From a virus: a stretch of 25,102 nt of DNA. Numbering within the stretch: position 1 is the stretch's first letter; every line of letters begins with the position of its first letter. A model generated the notes under the pieces. The model ran no database searches. It was given only the letters and a program-made list of their open reading frames with translations, and was not told the DNA's origin. This document shows, piece after piece, positions 7,459-18,294 of this stretch. Where the stretch lies: IMG/VR virus record IMGVR_UViG_3300046516_000325, positions 1 to 25,102 of that record. The stretch is one strand, 5' to 3'. Both the position numbers and the translations under genes were made by a program.

Positions 7459-8733
7459 ATGCCCGCCTGGTTCCTCCGGAGGCAGAAACTCAGAACCAAA
7501 TCGCGGTATCGAGCGCTAATACCGAAGACGGACGCGGCGAATACTCCGCCGTTTCTGCCTCAAAGCGCTCCGCCCCCGCCGACGTCTCGCCAGTGGATGC
7601 CAATCGTCCTTGCGGCGTGGGCGGCGAGCGCGAATTTTTCGCCGCTCTTTTCGGGCAGCTTCACCCCCGAGCAGAACGTCGCCGACAATCCGCCGTTCGG
7701 CGCGAAGCCGTGGCTCGAAGGCGTCATTGGCGCGTGGGACCCGGATCCGCCTCCGGCGCAGCAGAGGCGCATCCAGGCCGTGCAGGCCGGCGCCTCGGCC
7801 GATCAACCGTTCGGCTCATCGCTCGTCGTCATCGAGGCCGATTGGGACGCGGAGCCCGCGCCATTCCAGGCGCGGAGGTTCATTCCGCAAGGCGCCGTCG
7901 CGGCCGCGGCTTCGCAGCCCTACGCGAGCCAGCTCGAGCAGCTCGTCGCATCGTGGCAGCCCGTGGATCCGCCGGCGCAACAGCTGCGGCGCCTGGCGCC
8001 GATCCCGACGCCGGATCTGCCGCCGTTCGGCGCGCGGCCATGGGTCGAGCCGCTGCTCGCACTGTGGGAGCCCGAGCCCTTTAGCGGCCGCGCGCGGATC
8101 CTCGCGCCGATCCCGACGCCGGACCTGCCGCCATTCGGCGCGCGGCCATGGGTCGAGTCGCTGCTTGCGCTGTGGGATCCGGAGCCGTGGATCGGTCGGG
8201 CCCGGATCTTCGCGCCGATCGTGCCGGCCGCAACTGCGGACAACCCGCCATTCGGGGCGAAGCCATGGATCGAGCCGGTCGTTGCGCTGTGGGAGCCGGA
8301 GCCCTATAGCGGCCGCGCGCGCATTCTCGCGCCGATCGTGCCGGCAGCCGCGGTCGACAACCCGCCGTTCGCGGTGCGCGCGTGGCGCGCGACGGTGCTC
8401 GATTCCTGGGAGCCGGCGCCTTACAGGCCGCAGGTCCTGACGCACGTCGTCCAGGGCCAGCGCGTCGACAATCCGCCGTTCGCGGTGCGTCCGTGGATGG
8501 GGACCGTTCTCGCGGCTTGGCAGCCGGTTCCTCCGGACCAGGTCATCCTGCGCCGCGAAACGGAAGGCAGCGCCTTCGTGCCGGGAGTTTTCCCGCCTGA
8601 CTCGCCGCTGCACTTCCGCATTGGCCTGAAGACGGTCCGGATCGGATCGCCGAACGAAGCAGGCGCTGGCGAGCGGCTGGGCTCGGGAACGATCAACCCG
8701 TCGACGGGCAGGCTTGGAGACGAGGAAACGTGA
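7459..8733 (+). CDS. Tandem-repeat protein with PPF...W...P repeats
   Basis: 424 residues. The N-terminus is basic (about 1-25). From residue 76 to about 373 there are eight repeats of 34-39 residues, starting near residues 76, 115, 152, 186, 222, 261, 300 and 337. A degenerate copy lies at about 28-75. The consensus is D-[NL]-PPF-[GA]-x-[KR]-PW followed by a hydrophobic strand ending AxW-x-P-x-P, then a basic patch (GRARI or QQRRI) and a hydrophobic strand (LAPI). Every repeat has a conserved Trp before the Pro pair. The last 50 residues differ and end acidic (GDEET). There are no Cys, signal peptide or membrane segments. Such regular units suggest an extended rod or beta-solenoid-like assembly, possibly a virion whisker. 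The gene ends in GTGA overlap with the gpW-like gene. Family and function are not known to me. Confidence 0.8.
   Translation: MPAWFLRRQKLRTKSRYRALIPKTDAANTPPFLPQSAPPPPTSRQWMPIVLAAWAASANFSPLFSGSFTPEQNVADNPPFGAKPWLEGVIGAWDPDPPPAQQRRIQAVQAGASADQPFGSSLVVIEADWDAEPAPFQARRFIPQGAVAAAASQPYASQLEQLVASWQPVDPPAQQLRRLAPIPTPDLPPFGARPWVEPLLALWEPEPFSGRARILAPIPTPDLPPFGARPWVESLLALWDPEPWIGRARIFAPIVPAATADNPPFGAKPWIEPVVALWEPEPYSGRARILAPIVPAAAVDNPPFAVRAWRATVLDSWEPAPYRPQVLTHVVQGQRVDNPPFAVRPWMGTVLAAWQPVPPDQVILRRETEGSAFVPGVFPPDSPLHFRIGLKTVRIGSPNEAGAGERLGSGTINPSTGRLGDEET
7684..8577 (+). repeat. In-gene tandem repeat array, about 102-117 bp per unit
   Basis: The array encodes the eight protein repeats of the gene around it. 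Units starting at 8014, 8122 and 8239 are closest at DNA level; the stretch encoding PPFGARPWVE is nearly identical in the first two. The outer units share the protein pattern but have diverged in DNA. This gradient points to recent unit duplication in the centre of an older array. Confidence 0.8.
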
Positions 8734-11060: not shown

Positions 11061-13403
11061 ATGGCCGTCAAAGTCAATGCGCCCGGTGTGGCGCAGGCGA
11101 GGAGCTTTATCGCCGAGGGGAAGATCAACGGTGGCGCCTGGAGCTTCACGGCGGCCGACGGCGACAAGCTGCTGGGCCCGAACGGCGACGACTGGCCGAA
11201 CTTCGCGAAATATCACCTCGCGGAGCATCCCGACCAGCCCGAGAAGACCAAGGCGCGCTACGGCTATCCCTACGGCAAGGCCGGCGAGGTCTACAAGCGC
11301 GGAGTCGAGGCCGCGAAATCGCGCGCAGCGCAGCAGGGCGACAAGGAGGTCGAGGCGCGCGCCGCGGAGCTGCTCAATCTGATCGAGGAAAAGTCGGAGG
11401 CCCCGGGCGCGGATACTCCCGCGGAGGAGGCGGCGGAGACCGCGCCGAAGAAGTCGGTGCCGATCGACGAGATCCGCGCGCGTCGCGATCTGCTCGAGGG
11501 CATGTTCGAGCGCGCCACGGTGGACGAGCAATCGCGCACCGTCGCGATGTCGTTCTCGTCCGAGGAGCCGGTCGAGCGCTTCTACGGCAACGAGATCCTC
11601 TCGCATGCCAGGGACGCAGTGAACCTCGACCGGCTCGGCTCCGGCCGCGCGAATCTTCTGGTGAATCACGATCCAAGCGACTGGGTCGGCGTGGTGCAGT
11701 CCGCTTCTGTCGGAGACGACAAAAAGGGCCGCGCGGTCGTCAAGTTCGGCAACAGCCAGCGCGCCTCCGAGGTCTTTCGCGACGTGAAGGACGGGATCCT
11801 GACGTCGGTGTCGGTCGGCTACATGCGCGACGACATGAAGCTGACGGGCGAGAGCAAGGACGGCCCCGACACATACACCGTCACCCGTTGGACGCCTTTC
11901 GAGGTGTCGCTCGTGACCGTGCCCGCGGATCAGACAGTCGGCGTGGGCCGGAGCGCAGCCGCGGAAGCGGCCGAGCGCGCGCGCGTCCACGCCGAAAACG
12001 AGCAACAAGCTCTCGCGGAAGCTGCGCGGCGAGCGGCTGCAGAAGTCCCCACCAAATCCGCGGCTTCTGCCGCTATCAAGGAGCATGCTATGACGCCCGA
12101 GGAACAAGCGGCTGCGGACGCTGCCGCCAGAACCAAGATCACCGCAGTTCAGGCCGAGAAGGAACGCCGGCAGGCCATCATCAACCTCTGCAAGGCGAGC
12201 AAGATCGATCCGCGCGTCGAGGAGCAGTGGATCCGCGACGGCACCACGCTGACCGAGGTCGCCGACGGTATCCTCGAGGTCGAGGAAGAGCGCAGCAAGC
12301 AGCGCCCGCACGAGGCCGCACGCCTGGGCCTGACGAGCCGGGAGAGCCAGCGCTGGAGCCTGTTCCGCGCGATGCGGCATCTGAACAAGCCGGCCGACCC
12401 GAAGTTCCGCGAGGAGGCGGCATTCGAGATCGAGTGCACCGCCGAGCTGGAGAGGAAGAACCCGGGCCTGGCGTCCGGCCAGACGAAGATTCTCGTGCCC
12501 TCGGAGATCCTGCACCGCGAGCTTCCGGAAGAGGCGGCCAGGCGCGCGATGGGCATGCGCGCCCTGGACATCACGCCGGGCTCCAAGGGCGGCTATCTGG
12601 TCGCGGTCGACCAGATGGACTTCATCGGGATCCTGCGCAATCGCTCGGTCGCGATGCGCATGGGGGCGCGCGTGCTCTCCGGCCTGCAGGGCAACCTCGT
12701 CTTCCCGCGGCAAACGGGCAAGCCGAGCGTGACCTGGCAGGGCGGAGGCGGCACGAGCGTCTCGGCGGCCGATCAGACTCTCGGCCAGCTCTCCATGACC
12801 CCGAAGACGGCGATCGTGATCACCGATGTCTCGATCCAGCTGCTCCAGCAGGCGTCGCCCTCGGCCGAGGCGTTCGTCATGGCCGACCTGGCCGCGGACA
12901 TCGCGATCGACGGCGTGGACAATGCCTCGATCAACGGCACGGGCGGTGCGCAACCGCTGGGCATCAAGAACACCACCGGCATCACCAGCGGCCAGGATGC
13001 GTCCTCGGCTACCTATGCCAAGATCCTCGCCTTCCCGCAGACCGCGGGCAGCGCGAATGCGATCCTCGGCAATCCGGGCTTCGTCACGAACACCGCCGGC
13101 GCGTCGCGGCTCATGCAGGTGCAACGCTTCACCTCGACGGACACCCCGCTGTGGGTCGGCAACATGCTCGACGGCATGTGCGTCGGCTTCAACGCGATGT
13201 CCTCCGAGCAGCTCGCATCGGCCAACCTCATCTTCGGTTCCTGGGACACCCTGGTGATCGGCGAGTGGGGCGTCCTGCAGCTCGACACCGACACCGGTGG
13301 CACGCGCTTCAATCAGGGGCAGGTCGGTATCCGCGCGCTGTGGATGGTCGACGTGATGCTGCGCTACCCGACGGCATGGGTGGTCGGCACGAACCTCTCG
13401 TAG
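11061..13403 (+). CDS. Prohead protease-scaffold-major capsid protein fusion
   Basis: A 780-residue polyprotein that should build the head. Residues 1-110 form an accessory domain (ARSFIAEGKINGGAWSF, KARYGYPYGKAGEVYKRG) often found ahead of phage proteases. Residues about 135-300 are an HK97-type prohead protease, with His203 in LLVNHDP and Ser251 in TSVSVGY as likely catalytic residues. Residues 305-500 are charged and helical, like the scaffolding delta domain. From about 524 (ALDITPGSKGGYLVAVDQ) the HK97-fold capsid protein runs to the end. GGAGG at 11050-11054 supports ATG 11061. Protease and capsid protein are separate genes in HK97 itself; fusions are known in other phages. An internal start at 12090 could supply extra capsid protein. 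A terminator hairpin follows. Confidence 0.92.
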   Translation: MAVKVNAPGVAQARSFIAEGKINGGAWSFTAADGDKLLGPNGDDWPNFAKYHLAEHPDQPEKTKARYGYPYGKAGEVYKRGVEAAKSRAAQQGDKEVEARAAELLNLIEEKSEAPGADTPAEEAAETAPKKSVPIDEIRARRDLLEGMFERATVDEQSRTVAMSFSSEEPVERFYGNEILSHARDAVNLDRLGSGRANLLVNHDPSDWVGVVQSASVGDDKKGRAVVKFGNSQRASEVFRDVKDGILTSVSVGYMRDDMKLTGESKDGPDTYTVTRWTPFEVSLVTVPADQTVGVGRSAAAEAAERARVHAENEQQALAEAARRAAAEVPTKSAASAAIKEHAMTPEEQAAADAAARTKITAVQAEKERRQAIINLCKASKIDPRVEEQWIRDGTTLTEVADGILEVEEERSKQRPHEAARLGLTSRESQRWSLFRAMRHLNKPADPKFREEAAFEIECTAELERKNPGLASGQTKILVPSEILHRELPEEAARRAMGMRALDITPGSKGGYLVAVDQMDFIGILRNRSVAMRMGARVLSGLQGNLVFPRQTGKPSVTWQGGGGTSVSAADQTLGQLSMTPKTAIVITDVSIQLLQQASPSAEAFVMADLAADIAIDGVDNASINGTGGAQPLGIKNTTGITSGQDASSATYAKILAFPQTAGSANAILGNPGFVTNTAGASRLMQVQRFTSTDTPLWVGNMLDGMCVGFNAMSSEQLASANLIFGSWDTLVIGEWGVLQLDTDTGGTRFNQGQVGIRALWMVDVMLRYPTAWVVGTNLS
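12075..12092 (+). promoter_or_regulatory. Internal ribosome-binding site and in-frame ATG for capsid part
   Basis: Inside the protease-capsid gene, ATCAAGGAG (12075-12083) lies 6 nt before ATG 12090, which is in frame (Met344). The same nine bases with the same 6-nt gap precede the real start at 13468. A product from 12090 would be 437 residues: scaffold region plus capsid protein, without protease. Lambda makes Nu3 from a comparable start nested in C. Its use here is inferred. Confidence 0.6.
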
Positions 13404-13711: not shown

Positions 13712-14212
13712 ATGAGAATCTTCACCGATATCGTTCTTCTCGTGGCGTTCGTCACCATCGTGGTCTTCGCGCTCGCGCACCGCCGCGAGCTGATCACGAT
13801 GGCCGAGAACGCCTTCACCGGCGCCCGGCTGCTGCTGAACCAGGCCTCGGCGGCCTCGGGGGCGTCACTGATCGACGCCGTTTCGGCCGCGAACACCGCC
13901 GCTGCCACCAGCGGGAGCGGCAAGTGGCTCGACGTGCGCCCCTACGACGGAGAAATGCTGGTCATCCAGCAGGTCGGGGCCGTGACCGGCTCGATCACCG
14001 GCAAGTGTCAGTCGGCGAGTGACGCCAACGGTACGGGTGCCGCGGACATCACGGGAGCGACATTCACCATCGTGAGCTCGTCGAACAACACCCAGAGCAT
14101 CGCGGTCGACCCCAGAAAGGTCGTCGGCGGGTTCCTGGGCTACGTGGGAACGATCGCCACCGGGCCGTCGCTGGTCAGTGTTACGGCGTTCGGGAAAAAG
14201 CACACGGTCTGA
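13712..14212 (+). CDS. Virion-region protein copy B1, with N-terminal membrane segment
   Basis: 166 residues, with AAGGAG at 13699-13704 before ATG 13712. Residues about 5-24 are a strong hydrophobic helix (FTDIVLLVAFVTIVVFALA) followed by HRR, as in a membrane anchor with the basic end inside. From residue about 44 it is a clear paralogue of the gene at 14293: both have SLID, GSGKWL, DGE, SATDANG or SASDANG, GAADI, and GGFLGY near the end. The membrane helix is absent from the other copy. A second ATG (13799, Met30) would avoid the helix but has no good ribosome site. The shared part looks like a compact beta domain, perhaps decorating the head. Function unknown. Confidence 0.75.
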   Translation: MRIFTDIVLLVAFVTIVVFALAHRRELITMAENAFTGARLLLNQASAASGASLIDAVSAANTAAATSGSGKWLDVRPYDGEMLVIQQVGAVTGSITGKCQSASDANGTGAADITGATFTIVSSSNNTQSIAVDPRKVVGGFLGYVGTIATGPSLVSVTAFGKKHTV

Positions 14213-14292: not shown

Positions 14293-14688
14293 ATGCTAGG
14301 CAGCCAGGCATCGGCCGCGACGCCGACGTCACTGATCGACACGATCTCGATCTCCGCGAACGTCGCGAGCGGCAGCGGAAAATGGCTCAACGTCGGGCTT
14401 CATGATGGCGAGCTCATCGTGATCCAGAACGTGGGCGTGCTCACCGGCACCAATCCCACGGTCGCCGGCAAGCTCCAGAGCGCCACCGATGCGAACGGCT
14501 CCGGCGCGGCTGATATCTCGGGCGCAACCTACACGTTGGTCTCGGCGAACAACAACGTGCAGGCGCTCGTCATCGACACGAGAAAGGTCCCCGGCGGCTT
14601 CCTCGGCTATGCCGGAACCCTGGGCGGAACGGTAGGGCCGACGGCGCTGCTCAGCGTCGTTGCGGCCGCGAAAAGGCACGTCGTCTGA
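14293..14688 (+). CDS. Virion-region protein, copy B2
   Basis: 131 residues, paralogous to the protein at 13712 over nearly its full length. By eye, about half the residues are identical in the shared region, with highest agreement around DANG-GAADI-GAT and RKV-GGFLGY-GT. It has no membrane helix. AAAAGG at 14279-14284 serves as ribosome site. The sequence is rich in Gly, Ala, Thr and Val with strand-like alternation and lacks Cys and catalytic motifs, as expected for a structural beta protein. The presence of two related but distinct copies suggests either two positions on the virion or one diverged copy. Function not known. Confidence 0.75.
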   Translation: MLGSQASAATPTSLIDTISISANVASGSGKWLNVGLHDGELIVIQNVGVLTGTNPTVAGKLQSATDANGSGAADISGATYTLVSANNNVQALVIDTRKVPGGFLGYAGTLGGTVGPTALLSVVAAAKRHVV

Positions 14689-14969: not shown

Positions 14970-15248
14970 GTGTTCGCCGAGGACCTCGACGTCTTTTTCA
15001 ACCCGGACGACTTCGCCCCGGGCGCGACGCTGCAGGGCGGCGCGATCGTGAACGTCATCTTCGACGCGGCGCACCTCGAGGTCCTCGGGGTGAGCTCGGC
15101 GAACCCAGTGGCGCTGGCGAAGGCCTCTGATGTCGCGGACAGCGACATCGGAAAGACGCTGACGATCAATGCCGTGGCATACACGATCCACGACCGGCAG
15201 CCGCAGGACGACGGGGCGACGGTGCTGCTGCAGCTGAGCAAGCCATGA
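14970..15248 (+). CDS. Head-tail attachment protein (lambda gpFII-like)
   Basis: 92 residues. The opening FAEDLDVFFNPDDFAPGATL and the late strands IGKTLTINAVAYTI and GATVLLQLS match the small beta-barrel joining proteins of the lambda gpFII type. These sit at the head-tail interface and take part in tail attachment. Lambda FII is 117 residues. GTG 14970 has only a weak AGCAGG-like site 3 bp after the previous stop, so coupling is likely. The gene ends in an ATGA overlap. Position between head and tail genes supports the call. Confidence 0.75.
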   Translation: MFAEDLDVFFNPDDFAPGATLQGGAIVNVIFDAAHLEVLGVSSANPVALAKASDVADSDIGKTLTINAVAYTIHDRQPQDDGATVLLQLSKP

Positions 15249-15379
15249 GCGTCATGCTGAACGCAATCCTGTCTCGCGACAGGATGGCTCGAATCTTGGA
15301 TTGGGCGGTGACGATCGGTTTCATGGCGCTCGCGGTCGGGGTCGTGATCCTCGGATTTCTGTCGGTCCTTCATGGCTGA
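15245..15379 (+). CDS. Small single-pass membrane protein, 44 residues
   Basis: ATG 15245 overlaps the previous stop (ATGA), and the frame ends at TGA 15377-15379, inside the next gene's start. The product begins MSVMLNAILSRDRMARILDW. A hydrophobic helix follows at about 21-42 (VTIGFMALAVGVVILGFLSV). Overlaps on both sides argue for a real, translationally coupled gene. Membrane miniproteins are known in phage operons, often as holin-like or membrane-active proteins, but nothing here shows a role. It lies where lambda has Z. Confidence 0.55.
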   Translation: MSVMLNAILSRDRMARILDWAVTIGFMALAVGVVILGFLSVLHG

Positions 15380-15818: not shown

Positions 15819-15840
15819 TCCGCTAGTTCCGTTTGCCCCG

Positions 15841-15868
15841 AGGCCCGCTCTTGCGGGCCTTTTCTTTT
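15841..15868 (+). terminator. Factor-independent terminator before the tail tube gene
   Basis: AGGCCCGC (15841-15848) and GCGGGCCT (15853-15860) form a perfect 8-bp stem with a TCTT loop. TTTTCTTTT follows (15860-15868). It stands between the tail terminator and tail tube genes, 12 bp before the tube start codon, whose GGAG site (15869-15872) begins right after the T-run. Confidence 0.85.
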
Positions 15869-15880
15869 GGAGATCCCGAA

Positions 15881-17095
15881 ATGACCTTCGCCACCGGCGT
15901 CGCAAAGCAGCTCAAATACAAGGTCGAGTCCACCTGGGGCACGGTTCCGTCGGCATCGGCCTCGCAGTCCCTGCGGCGCGTGACGTCGAATCTCAGCCTG
16001 AAGAAGGCGACTTACGAGTCGAATGAGATTCTCTCGACTTACCAGCGATCGGATTACCGCCACGGGATCCGCTCGGTCGAGGGAGCGATCAACGGCGAGC
16101 TCTCGCCGGGCACCTACAAGGACTTCATGGCGGCCGCGCTGCGGCGCGCCTTCACGGCGGTGACGGCGATCACCGGCGCCTCGATCACGATCGCGGGCAC
16201 GGGCCCGACCTGGACGATCGCGCGCGCGGCGGGCTCGTTCCTGACCGACGGCATCAAACAGGGCCATATCGTGCGGCTCACCGCCGGCGGGTTCAATGCG
16301 GCAAACCTGAACAAGAACCTGATCGTAGTATCGGCGACGGCGACGCCGTTGACGGTGGCGTTGTTTCCGGGCGTGGCACCGCTGGTCGCCGAGGGCCCGA
16401 TCTCCGCAGCGACGGTCACCGTTCCCGGCAAGGTCACCTTCGCGCCCTCGAGCGGCTTCACTGACCTGTCCTATTCGATCGAGCACTGGCATTCGGACCT
16501 GTCGCTCTCGCATGTGTACTCCGGCTGCAAGGTCAGCAAGATGGACCTAGCGCTGCCGCCGACCGGGATGGCGACCGGCGCCTTCAGCTTCCTCGGCAAG
16601 GACATCACCACCGCCGGCGCGGAATATTTCACCTCGCCGACGGCGCAGACCTCGACCGGGGTTACCGCCGCGGTCAACGGCCTGCTGGTCGCGCAGAGCG
16701 GCCTCGCAGCGAACGTCACCGGCGCGACGATCGCCTACGACGGCAACATGACCACCGAGCCGATCGTCGGTTCGAACGTCTATGGCGACATCGCCGAGGG
16801 CCGCATCCTGTTCAGCGGGCAGCTCACCGCCGTGTTCCAGGACGCGGTGATGCGCGACTACTTCATCAACGAGACCGAGGTCTCGCTCGCGATCGCGCTC
16901 TCGGCCTCGAGCGCCGTCGGGTCGGATTTCATTTCGTTCGCACTGCCGCGCATCAAGTTCGGCGCGGCCGACATCGACGACGGCGACAAGACTCTGATTA
17001 TCACCCTGCCCTATACCGCGCTCTACAACTTCGCCGGCGGCGCCGGCGTGCAGACCGAGCAGACGACCTTCCAGATCCAGGACTCGCAGGCCTAG
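15881..17095 (+). CDS. Major tail tube protein (lambda gpV-like), with inserted domain
   Basis: 404 residues; the GGAG at 15869-15872 precedes ATG 15881. The N-terminus (KQLKYKVESTWGTVPSAS), the stretch SVEGAINGELSPGTYKDFM and the late segment YGDIAEGRILFSGQLTAVF fit the two-layer beta sandwich that polymerises into the tube of siphoviruses. Compared with lambda gpV (246) it is long. A beta-rich segment at about 90-190 (ASITIAGTGPTWTIAR, SFLTDGIKQGHIVRLT, NLIVVSATATPLTVAL) looks like an inserted domain likely to face outside. The C-terminal ALPRIKFGAADIDDGDKTL is typical of tube proteins. A terminator-like hairpin follows. Confidence 0.85.
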   Translation: MTFATGVAKQLKYKVESTWGTVPSASASQSLRRVTSNLSLKKATYESNEILSTYQRSDYRHGIRSVEGAINGELSPGTYKDFMAAALRRAFTAVTAITGASITIAGTGPTWTIARAAGSFLTDGIKQGHIVRLTAGGFNAANLNKNLIVVSATATPLTVALFPGVAPLVAEGPISAATVTVPGKVTFAPSSGFTDLSYSIEHWHSDLSLSHVYSGCKVSKMDLALPPTGMATGAFSFLGKDITTAGAEYFTSPTAQTSTGVTAAVNGLLVAQSGLAANVTGATIAYDGNMTTEPIVGSNVYGDIAEGRILFSGQLTAVFQDAVMRDYFINETEVSLAIALSASSAVGSDFISFALPRIKFGAADIDDGDKTLIITLPYTALYNFAGGAGVQTEQTTFQIQDSQA

Positions 17096-17098
17096 TTA

Positions 17099-17143
17099 CT
17101 CCGAATTTAACCGCAGGTCCTGCGCGGATTCGGAGGGCATTTT
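17099..17143 (+). terminator. Terminator-like hairpin after tail tube gene
   Basis: CTCCGAAT (17099-17106) pairs perfectly with ATTCGGAG (17128-17135). Inside it, CGCAG (17112-17116) pairs with CTGCG (17120-17124). TTTT (17140-17143) follows after GGCA. It begins 3 bp past the tube stop codon and separates the tube gene from the Ntn-hydrolase gene. Confidence 0.65.
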
Positions 17144-17163
17144 CTGAAGCCAAGGAGCAGAAA

Positions 17164-17712
17164 ATGACATGCATTGTCGCGTTGCGCGATAAGAACACGA
17201 TTTACATGGGCTGCGATTCGGCCGGCACGAATGGGTCTTTTAGTAGACAGAATCGTGCGGATCCAAAGATCTACCGCGTAGGCAAGAGCTTGATCGGATT
17301 CACGAGCTCCTTCCGCATGGGGCAGCTGCTCGGCCACGCACTGACGTTGCCTGAACATCACTCCGATGTCGCGGTGGAAAAGTGGATGGTGACAAGTTTC
17401 GTCGACGCCATTCGCGGGTGTCTCAAGAATGGCGGATACGCAGAAAGAAAAGATGAGGTCGAGAAGGGCGGATTTTTCCTCGTCGCTTATCGCGGCAGGA
17501 TCTTCGAGATTCAGAGCGACTATCAGGTCGCCGAGAGAGAGGAGCCCTACGGCGCAATAGGCTGCGGCGAGGACCTGGCGCTGGGCGCGCTCTTCGCTTC
17601 GGAGCATCTAGCGGATAAACCGCGCAAGCGTGTCGAGCTCGCCCTGCAGGCGGCCGCCGCCTTCTCGGCCGGCGTCTATCCGCCGTTCAGGATCGAAGAA
17701 CTGAAGGGTTGA
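17164..17712 (+). CDS. Proteasome/HslV-like N-terminal nucleophile hydrolase
   Basis: 182 residues, like HslV (about 175). AAGGAG (17152-17157) fixes ATG 17164. After removal of Met1 the protein would begin TCIVAL, with Thr as the first residue, as in proteasome beta subunits and HslV. Counting from that Thr, Asp17 falls in YMGCDSAGT and Lys34 in DPKIYRV, close to the Thr1/Asp17/Lys33 triad of the family. IGFTSSFRMGQLL follows, like the family's strand-turn near the active site. The GAIGCGEDLALGAL helix matches the GSG..A-type segment of the fold. Threonine-peptidase activity is inferred. It sits between tube and chaperone genes, flanked by hairpins, and its base composition is less GC-rich than its neighbours, as in a moron. 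It could instead be an inactive structural relative. Confidence 0.75.
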   Translation: MTCIVALRDKNTIYMGCDSAGTNGSFSRQNRADPKIYRVGKSLIGFTSSFRMGQLLGHALTLPEHHSDVAVEKWMVTSFVDAIRGCLKNGGYAERKDEVEKGGFFLVAYRGRIFEIQSDYQVAEREEPYGAIGCGEDLALGALFASEHLADKPRKRVELALQAAAAFSAGVYPPFRIEELKG

Positions 17713-17734
17713 GATAGCCGTTAGCAGCCCTTTC

Positions 17735-17763
17735 GCAGGCGTCCAGACGTCTGCACCGGCCCC
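17735..17763 (+). repeat. 29-bp segment repeated from the large terminase gene end
   Basis: This stretch matches 2552-2580 at 24 of 29 positions. It includes the perfect palindrome CAGACGTCTG (17744-17753). In one frame both copies read AGVQTSAP followed by Pro-rich codons, although the copy here is not within a recognised gene. It may be a remnant of a lost coding segment or a shared recombination patch. Confidence 0.45.
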
Positions 17764-17834
17764 CCCGCCGGCGTGCGCCGAGGCGTTCTTCTCCTCCTTG
17801 GTGGGCTCGATCGAAGCGCGCTGTCCGGCGGGGG
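17762..17834 (+). other. Long-range inverted repeat before the chaperone gene
   Basis: CCCCCGCCGG (17762-17771) and CCGGCGGGGG (17825-17834) are perfect 10-bp inverted repeats around a 53-nt loop. CTTTCT follows, a weak T-run, and the chaperone's AAGGAG lies at 17846-17851. It may end transcription of the Ntn gene or structure the leader. The whole 147-bp gap between the two genes is filled by this and the repeated segment. Confidence 0.55.
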
Positions 17835-17859
17835 CTTTCTACACCAAGGAGAAACCGCA

Positions 17860-18294
17860 ATGCAAGGCAACGGCAGCATCGACCTGTCTATCTTCGACAC
17901 GAAGACGCAGGCCGACCAGGGCGTCGAGCTCGATATTCTGCACATCAAGACCGGCAAGCCGATCGGGTTCCGGATCCGCGTACTGGGCGAGGATTCCGCT
18001 TTGATGCGGGCGCATGTCCGCGCCTATCGCGAGCAGGTCCTCGAGCAGGCGCGCGAACAGATGCGCGGCAGCCGCACCCACGAGGACATCGAGAACGAGG
18101 CGCTCGAGCGCCTGGTGCTCGCCACGGTGGGCTGGACGGAGGGCGCGACCTTTTTCGGCGAGGCCTTCCCCTTCTCGCGCGAGAACGCGCGCCGGCTCTA
18201 TACCGATCCGCGCATCCCCGAGATCCGCGAGCAGGTCGAGCGCGGCATGGCGAAGCGCGCAAATTTCTTGCCGGCGAACGGCACCGGCTCCTAG
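17860..18294 (+). CDS. Tail assembly chaperone (gpG-like)
   Basis: 144 residues, like lambda gpG (140). AAGGAG (17846-17851) precedes ATG 17860. The sequence has an N-terminal part (SIDLSIFDTKTQADQGVEL, GKPIGFRIRVLGEDS) and long charged helices (RAYREQVLEQAREQMRG) typical of phage tail assembly chaperones. It ends with the phrase WTEGATFFGEAFPFSRENAR, a common chaperone motif. It should bind the tape measure protein and guide tube assembly, but is not part of the mature virion in lambda. Near the 3' end a slippery site lets some ribosomes shift to the -1 frame, making a longer form. Confidence 0.88.
   Translation: MQGNGSIDLSIFDTKTQADQGVELDILHIKTGKPIGFRIRVLGEDSALMRAHVRAYREQVLEQAREQMRGSRTHEDIENEALERLVLATVGWTEGATFFGEAFPFSRENARRLYTDPRIPEIREQVERGMAKRANFLPANGTGS

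Follow-up and report, generated by a model that had tools for sequence, protein, structure and literature searches.

We report that the 25,102-nt stretch of viral DNA analysed here (the window) carries, between its tail tube and tail chaperone genes, a gene for a proteasome-like Ntn (threonine) hydrolase (17164..17712, plus strand). Our main reading, to which we give a probability of about 0.6, is that the product is an active threonine hydrolase of the AAH/PHROG_1040 family that works without an unfoldase in the infected cell, and that its gene is a recent accessory acquisition dispensable for virion assembly.

The 182-residue product of 17164-17712 begins MTCIVAL (translation MTCIVALRDKNTIYMGCDSAGTNGSF...ADPKIYRVGKSLIGFTSSFRMGQLL). 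ATG 17164 is the earliest ATG, GTG or TTG in the frame and thus the sole possible start, so that Thr2 directly follows the methionine and a propeptide is impossible. The sequence ahead of this ATG offers a ribosome-binding region, CCAAGGAGCAGAAA (17150..17163, plus strand). Translation places the putative nucleophile Thr2, along with Asp18, Lys35 and a GFTSSF turn, exactly where the sequence-only reading of this DNA had put them. That reading had also remarked that the gene is less GC-rich than its neighbours, and the difference is real: 58.1% GC against 65–67% for nearly all neighbours, and 71% GC at third codon positions against 87–90% in most surrounding structural genes. The gene is under purifying selection (dN/dS ~0.1), with dN of 0.19–0.28 set against a saturated dS of 1.5–2.2.

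Fold and catalytic residues of the hydrolase

The proposal at the outset was a proteasome/HslV-type hydrolase, to be abandoned if the predicted fold were not of the Ntn type or if close relatives lacked the catalytic residues. Fold and catalytic triad both support it. Thr2, Asp18 and Lys35 are invariant across 90 relatives, as are Gly45, Thr47, Ser49, Gly103, Phe105, Gly133 and Gly135. The two search patterns used to gather relatives spanned residues 14–21 and 45–52, and invariance within these segments is partly selected; Thr2, Lys35 and residues 103–135 lie outside the patterns, and their invariance is free of this bias. Such conservation indicates that the Thr2/Asp18/Lys35 arrangement is not a product of chance. 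A profile built from 63 relatives matched BPH (2.3e-5) and HslV (1e-4) among PDB entries, and the alignment pairs Thr2, Asp18 and Lys35 with Thr1, Asp17 and Lys33 of these enzymes.

The AlphaFold2 model of the protein (pLDDT 94.9, pTM 0.90) has a proteasome-type, alpha-beta-beta-alpha Ntn fold, in which DSSP assigns helices at residues 50–59, 71–89, 136–145 and 153–167 and a final strand at 176–181. The structure search suggested by the sequence-only reading, against HslV and proteasome beta subunits, returned BPH first (Foldseek E 3e-11, TM 0.74–0.79), HslV second (TM ~0.60–0.74) and proteasome beta subunits third. At E ≤ 0.001 it matched 824 PDB chains, and the best 50 of the 824 are all BPH, HslV or proteasome. 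Sequence models place the protein less evenly. PHROG_1040, named 'peptidase HslV family', matches over its full length (E 1.7e-27); Pfam PF00227 (Proteasome) scores 15.4 bits, under its cut-off of 22.4, and matches only 3 of 63 relatives at E ≤ 0.01; NCBIfam holds no model for the family. The sub-threshold Pfam score is a matter of search cut-off and reflects no biological feature, the model simply missing this divergent group.

The family is widespread in viruses, with 210 matching phage records and relatives encoded by 276 IMG/VR stretches; isolated phages with the gene include T5-like, Geobacillus, Moorella, Vibrio and jumbo phages. The relative in Pseudoalteromonas phage J2-1 (L208 5001-6167) has the same domain followed by ~200 extra C-terminal residues, in which a domain search found no domain.

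Met-Thr is a standard substrate of methionine aminopeptidase, and because of this the host enzyme would be expected to strip Met1 and so expose Thr2 with no propeptide to remove. Conservation and fold together suggest that Thr2 would then cut peptide bonds, aided by Lys35, Asp18 and the Gly45-Thr-x-Ser loop. The same fold could in principle serve other chemistry, such as that of a connectase-like transferase or ligase, or of a hydrolase restricted to a narrow set of peptides or amides. Connectase proves that ligation can evolve in proteasome homologs (PMC8665760), but its helical insertion between strands 3 and 4 is absent from the predicted secondary structure, and helices H1/H2, missing in connectase, are present in the window protein; we regard this kind of activity as highly improbable.

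An optional gene among the structural genes

The hydrolase gene lies between a tail (tube-type) protein gene (phrog_290; 15833..17095, plus strand) and a tail assembly chaperone gene (phrog_313; 17860..18294, plus strand), whose ATG at 17860 is preceded by AAGGAG. From the stop of the former to the ATG of the latter, this segment of the plus strand measures 764 nt (17096..17859). Two related contigs (L018/L092 and L019/L090), which share 85–90% nucleotide identity with the window over most of the aligned length (78–93% by segment), have 84–86 nt at the equivalent slot and lack the hydrolase gene. The 42-kb contig behind L092 carries no copy anywhere, by a search that was positive in five controls. 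The suggestion that the gene was separately acquired is thus upheld, and in the phage of the window it is an accessory gene. This pair of empty sites shows that the phage can do without it.

Relative to the empty sites, the whole of 17096..17859 has been replaced except for a near-palindrome, CAGACRTCTGCAC (17741..17756, no strand assigned), which is common to both arrangements and marks the right side of the insertion. Matches to it number seven in the window, against a shuffle mean of 1.3, and exceed those in each of 100 shuffles; the recurring element could be an operator or some other phage signal. A further copy lies at 2558-2573 of the window, the empty-site copies are at L018 6274-6286, L019 6283-6295 and L092 15882-15894, and the element also occurs 3' of the tail tube gene in relatives L028 and L029. 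We set aside a transposon insertion, since no flanking direct repeats pointing to one were found around the insertion. Elsewhere in the window, a second, small indel distinguishes it from L018 and L019: the stretch 15236-15372, between two structural genes, holds ~120 nt that they lack.

The gene had also been described as flanked by two hairpins, of which one stands. The stem-loop 3' of the tail tube stop (17099..17143, plus strand) is modestly stable, the fold of 17090-17163 that holds it having z = -1.98, with an equally good fold in 6 of 200 shuffles; the region 17762-17834 is at chance level (z = -0.38). Neither a canonical terminator nor a promoter was found at the gene flanks, and an Rfam search of the window gave no match.

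A position beside the tail tube is no conserved feature of the gene: relatives sit elsewhere, and in those other tail loci that allowed the distance to be measured the tube–chaperone slot is short, with a single exception. That exception is another phage, which carries a Rha-type regulator gene in the slot (L074 6245-6871), and this shows that the slot accepts cargo. We thus picture a transferable gene, its acquisition documented by the empty sites and probably recent, residing in a tolerant slot. The location between tail tube and tail chaperone also suggests that the hydrolase is probably made late, together with the tail genes.

Neighbourhoods of relatives and the likely role

The four closest relatives (L131, L132, L133 and L003; 66–77% identity) form a single clade with the window copy (support 100/100). 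They come from related phages, with capsid proteins 34–44% identical, and here the gene lies downstream of the capsid gene, in L132, L133 and L003 with a decoration-type gene on one side and a connector-type one on the other. Its differing placement indicates that the gene is mobile among these related phages, and its conservation exceeds that of the capsid. In the window itself the capsid gene is followed by two tandem genes (13712-14212 and 14293-14688) of ~53–55% mutual identity, probably duplicated decoration-type proteins.

A place among structural genes would suit a protease of virion maturation, one that processes proteins of the head or tail. This role was among those first suggested for the enzyme, and it draws on the adjacency of the gene to terminase, portal or capsid genes in many phages, as well as on the capsid-proximal position in the four closest relatives. 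A head gene is the immediate neighbour at 26 of 79 IMG/VR loci, in several different slots. In a dereplicated set of 40 contigs, each 30 kb or longer, however, head adjacency occurs in 7 against 2.7 expected (P ~0.02), a rough expectation that allots five slots to a genome of 700-bp genes; the weaker adjacency in this set is explained by short contigs being called viral through their hallmark genes. We accordingly discarded the idea of a strong head-module association. In large phages the gene instead adjoins thymidylate synthase, DHFR, ribonucleotide reductase and other nucleotide-metabolism genes, and near-identical phages do without it. A head protease is moreover already in place: an S78 prohead protease is present in all seven head modules tested among hydrolase carriers, and the major capsid protein of the window (11061..13403, plus strand) contains its own fused head-maturation protease domain (residues ~199–367). 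With this phage and the tested head-module carriers so equipped, neither a head-protease role nor a replacement of that enzyme is tenable, and we judge virion maturation in general very unlikely; the hydrolase would not be required for virion assembly as such.

Proteasome-type peptidases raise the question of an unfoldase partner. No AAA_2 domain (HslU/ClpX-like unfoldase) scored above cut-off in any of 20 carrier contigs, several of which are fragments and may be incomplete, and control genomes were positive in 14 of 14 cases. The absence of a phage unfoldase among these 20 contigs, some fragmentary, is no more than suggestive, and the host's HslU or ClpX might take that part. This leads to a further candidate role, the hijacking or poisoning of host HslUV or ClpXP, in which the phage protein would act as an alternative protease subunit on HslU or mix with HslV. 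Its HslV-like fold and the lack of a phage unfoldase in the carrier contigs are compatible with such a role; its identity to HslV is only ~17–24%, and relatives also occur on Bacillus and Streptomyces plasmids and in a Moorella phage, which makes this option unlikely in our estimate.

The role we prefer is that of an unfoldase-free peptidase at work within the infected cell. With no dedicated phage unfoldase, the enzyme would probably operate as a small oligomer on unfolded chains or peptides. That it clears unfolded proteins, or particular ones, from a cell that is busy and under stress is the least certain step, a guess consistent with the data.

Copies on symbiosis plasmids

Relatives of the phage gene are carried by 26 PLSDB plasmids, 21 of them from Rhizobium, Sinorhizobium, Mesorhizobium or Paraburkholderia, and nifH is present on all 12 rhizobial plasmids tested and absent from the Streptomyces and Bacillus plasmids tested. 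The rhizobial relatives are located at 9001-9546 in L215, at 8001-8546 in each of L221, L222, L223 and L225, at 9001-9549 in L213, at 8001-8549 in L224 and at 9001-9591 in L212. In Sinorhizobium mexicanum, S. terangae, S. fredii GR64 and S. americanum the gene has nifQ on one side and an Fe-S assembly gene on the other; nifS, nifW and fixAB come next, and rpoN is located upstream. Copies of the Rhizobium tropici type are close to nifH/nifD or nodD2. Among 148 Paraburkholderia genomes nine have the gene, eight of these belonging to the 35 nifH carriers (Fisher P 4e-5, for species that are related and hence not independent). The copy in R. tropici CIAT 899 (L219 8001-8540) is interrupted by an in-frame stop, carries no gene annotation and is apparently a pseudogene; intact copies are present on related plasmids.

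In most of these copies the upstream region carries sigma54/NifA-type motifs. In nine alpha-rhizobial copies the best sigma54-type site lies 111–124 nt upstream of the ATG; eight of them score 10–11 of 12 (shuffle P 0.001–0.02) and that of S. mexicanum scores 9 (P 0.056). Each of the nine also has at least one NifA-type TGT-N10-ACA motif within 400 nt, and of random places within these loci 1.4% have a sigma54 site scoring at least 10 together with such a NifA site. In five of the Paraburkholderia copies (L006, L007, L008, L010 and L212) the motif pair lies farther upstream, its spacing constant at ~288 nt. For one plasmid copy, Bphy_7682 (BPHY_RS37925, the hydrolase relative on pBPHY02 of Paraburkholderia phymatum), a published nodule RNA-seq table shows NifA-dependent expression, the gene being down in nifA-mutant bacteroids (log2 -2.52; PMC8305402).

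In the tree, which is midpoint-rooted and sampled heavily from phages, the Paraburkholderia copies form one clade and the main group of alpha-rhizobial copies another, both of them nested among phage copies, and a phage-to-plasmid direction of transfer appears likely from this topology. We consider it fairly probable that members of a phage-borne family were taken up on two or more separate occasions, by alpha-rhizobia and by beta-rhizobia, and came to lie on symbiosis plasmids under NifA/sigma54 control, where the product would serve as an unfoldase-free protease in bacteroids.

These copies also bear on the possibility that the phage enzyme is a counter-defence or host-takeover protease cleaving specific host proteins. 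Many counter-defence genes are, like this one, accessory and horizontally mobile. Neither a defence neighbour nor a target was seen, however, and domesticated rhizobial copies within a nitrogen-fixation regulon are not suggestive of phage-specific warfare; we hold this role to be doubtful.

Interest in the phage hydrolase rests on the function of its family and on the rhizobial lead. No function was given in the papers searched, phage copies receiving annotation remarks only, and we found no biochemistry in the literature for the AAH/PHROG_1040 group. The rhizobial copies, through their NifA/sigma54-type motifs and the one published NifA-dependent value, supply the first condition that switches a member on, and therefore make deletion phenotypes, substrates and the function of the family testable.

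Comparison with known proteasome homologs

BPH (beta-proteobacterial proteasome homolog; PDB 5OVS, 5OVT and 5OVU) offers the closest solved fold, with catalytic residues that align, although it is a cellular protein with ~23% identity to the window protein; its assembly is a heptameric double ring whose pore loop is long and acidic (PMC8665760). HslV (ClpQ) shares the fold and the catalytic Thr1, Asp17 and Lys33 but mostly has a propeptide, and it has an HslU partner; the phage protein leaves no room for a propeptide, and the 20 carrier contigs yielded no such partner.

The family entered the literature in 2021 among phage and bacterial proteasome homologs. Fuchs, Alva and Lupas presented 22 new homologs in that year; PPH and AAH are the two that occur commonly in phages, and for AAH the authors described no genomic neighbourhood that hints at a function (PMC8665760). 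PPH is likewise a phage-borne proteasome homolog, but it has ~140 residues and lacks helix H2; the window protein, with 182 residues and a helix at 71–89, does not belong to it. With AAH the protein shares a Group I compact subunit: it is of full size, with helices H1–H4, no propeptide and no C-terminal S12/H5, as seen from DSSP and the start codon. AAH occurs in many phages, alpha-proteobacteria and Actinobacteria, and our relatives come from phages, rhizobia and Streptomyces. Its length of 182 residues, the presence of both helices and the phage, alpha-proteobacterial and actinobacterial spread fit the published description of AAH, and we therefore file the protein as AAH-like. From PHROG_1040 it shows no notable difference, the name of that group being an annotation rather than a tested function. 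The phage gene itself is thus not new, and belongs to a described family, PHROG_1040/AAH.
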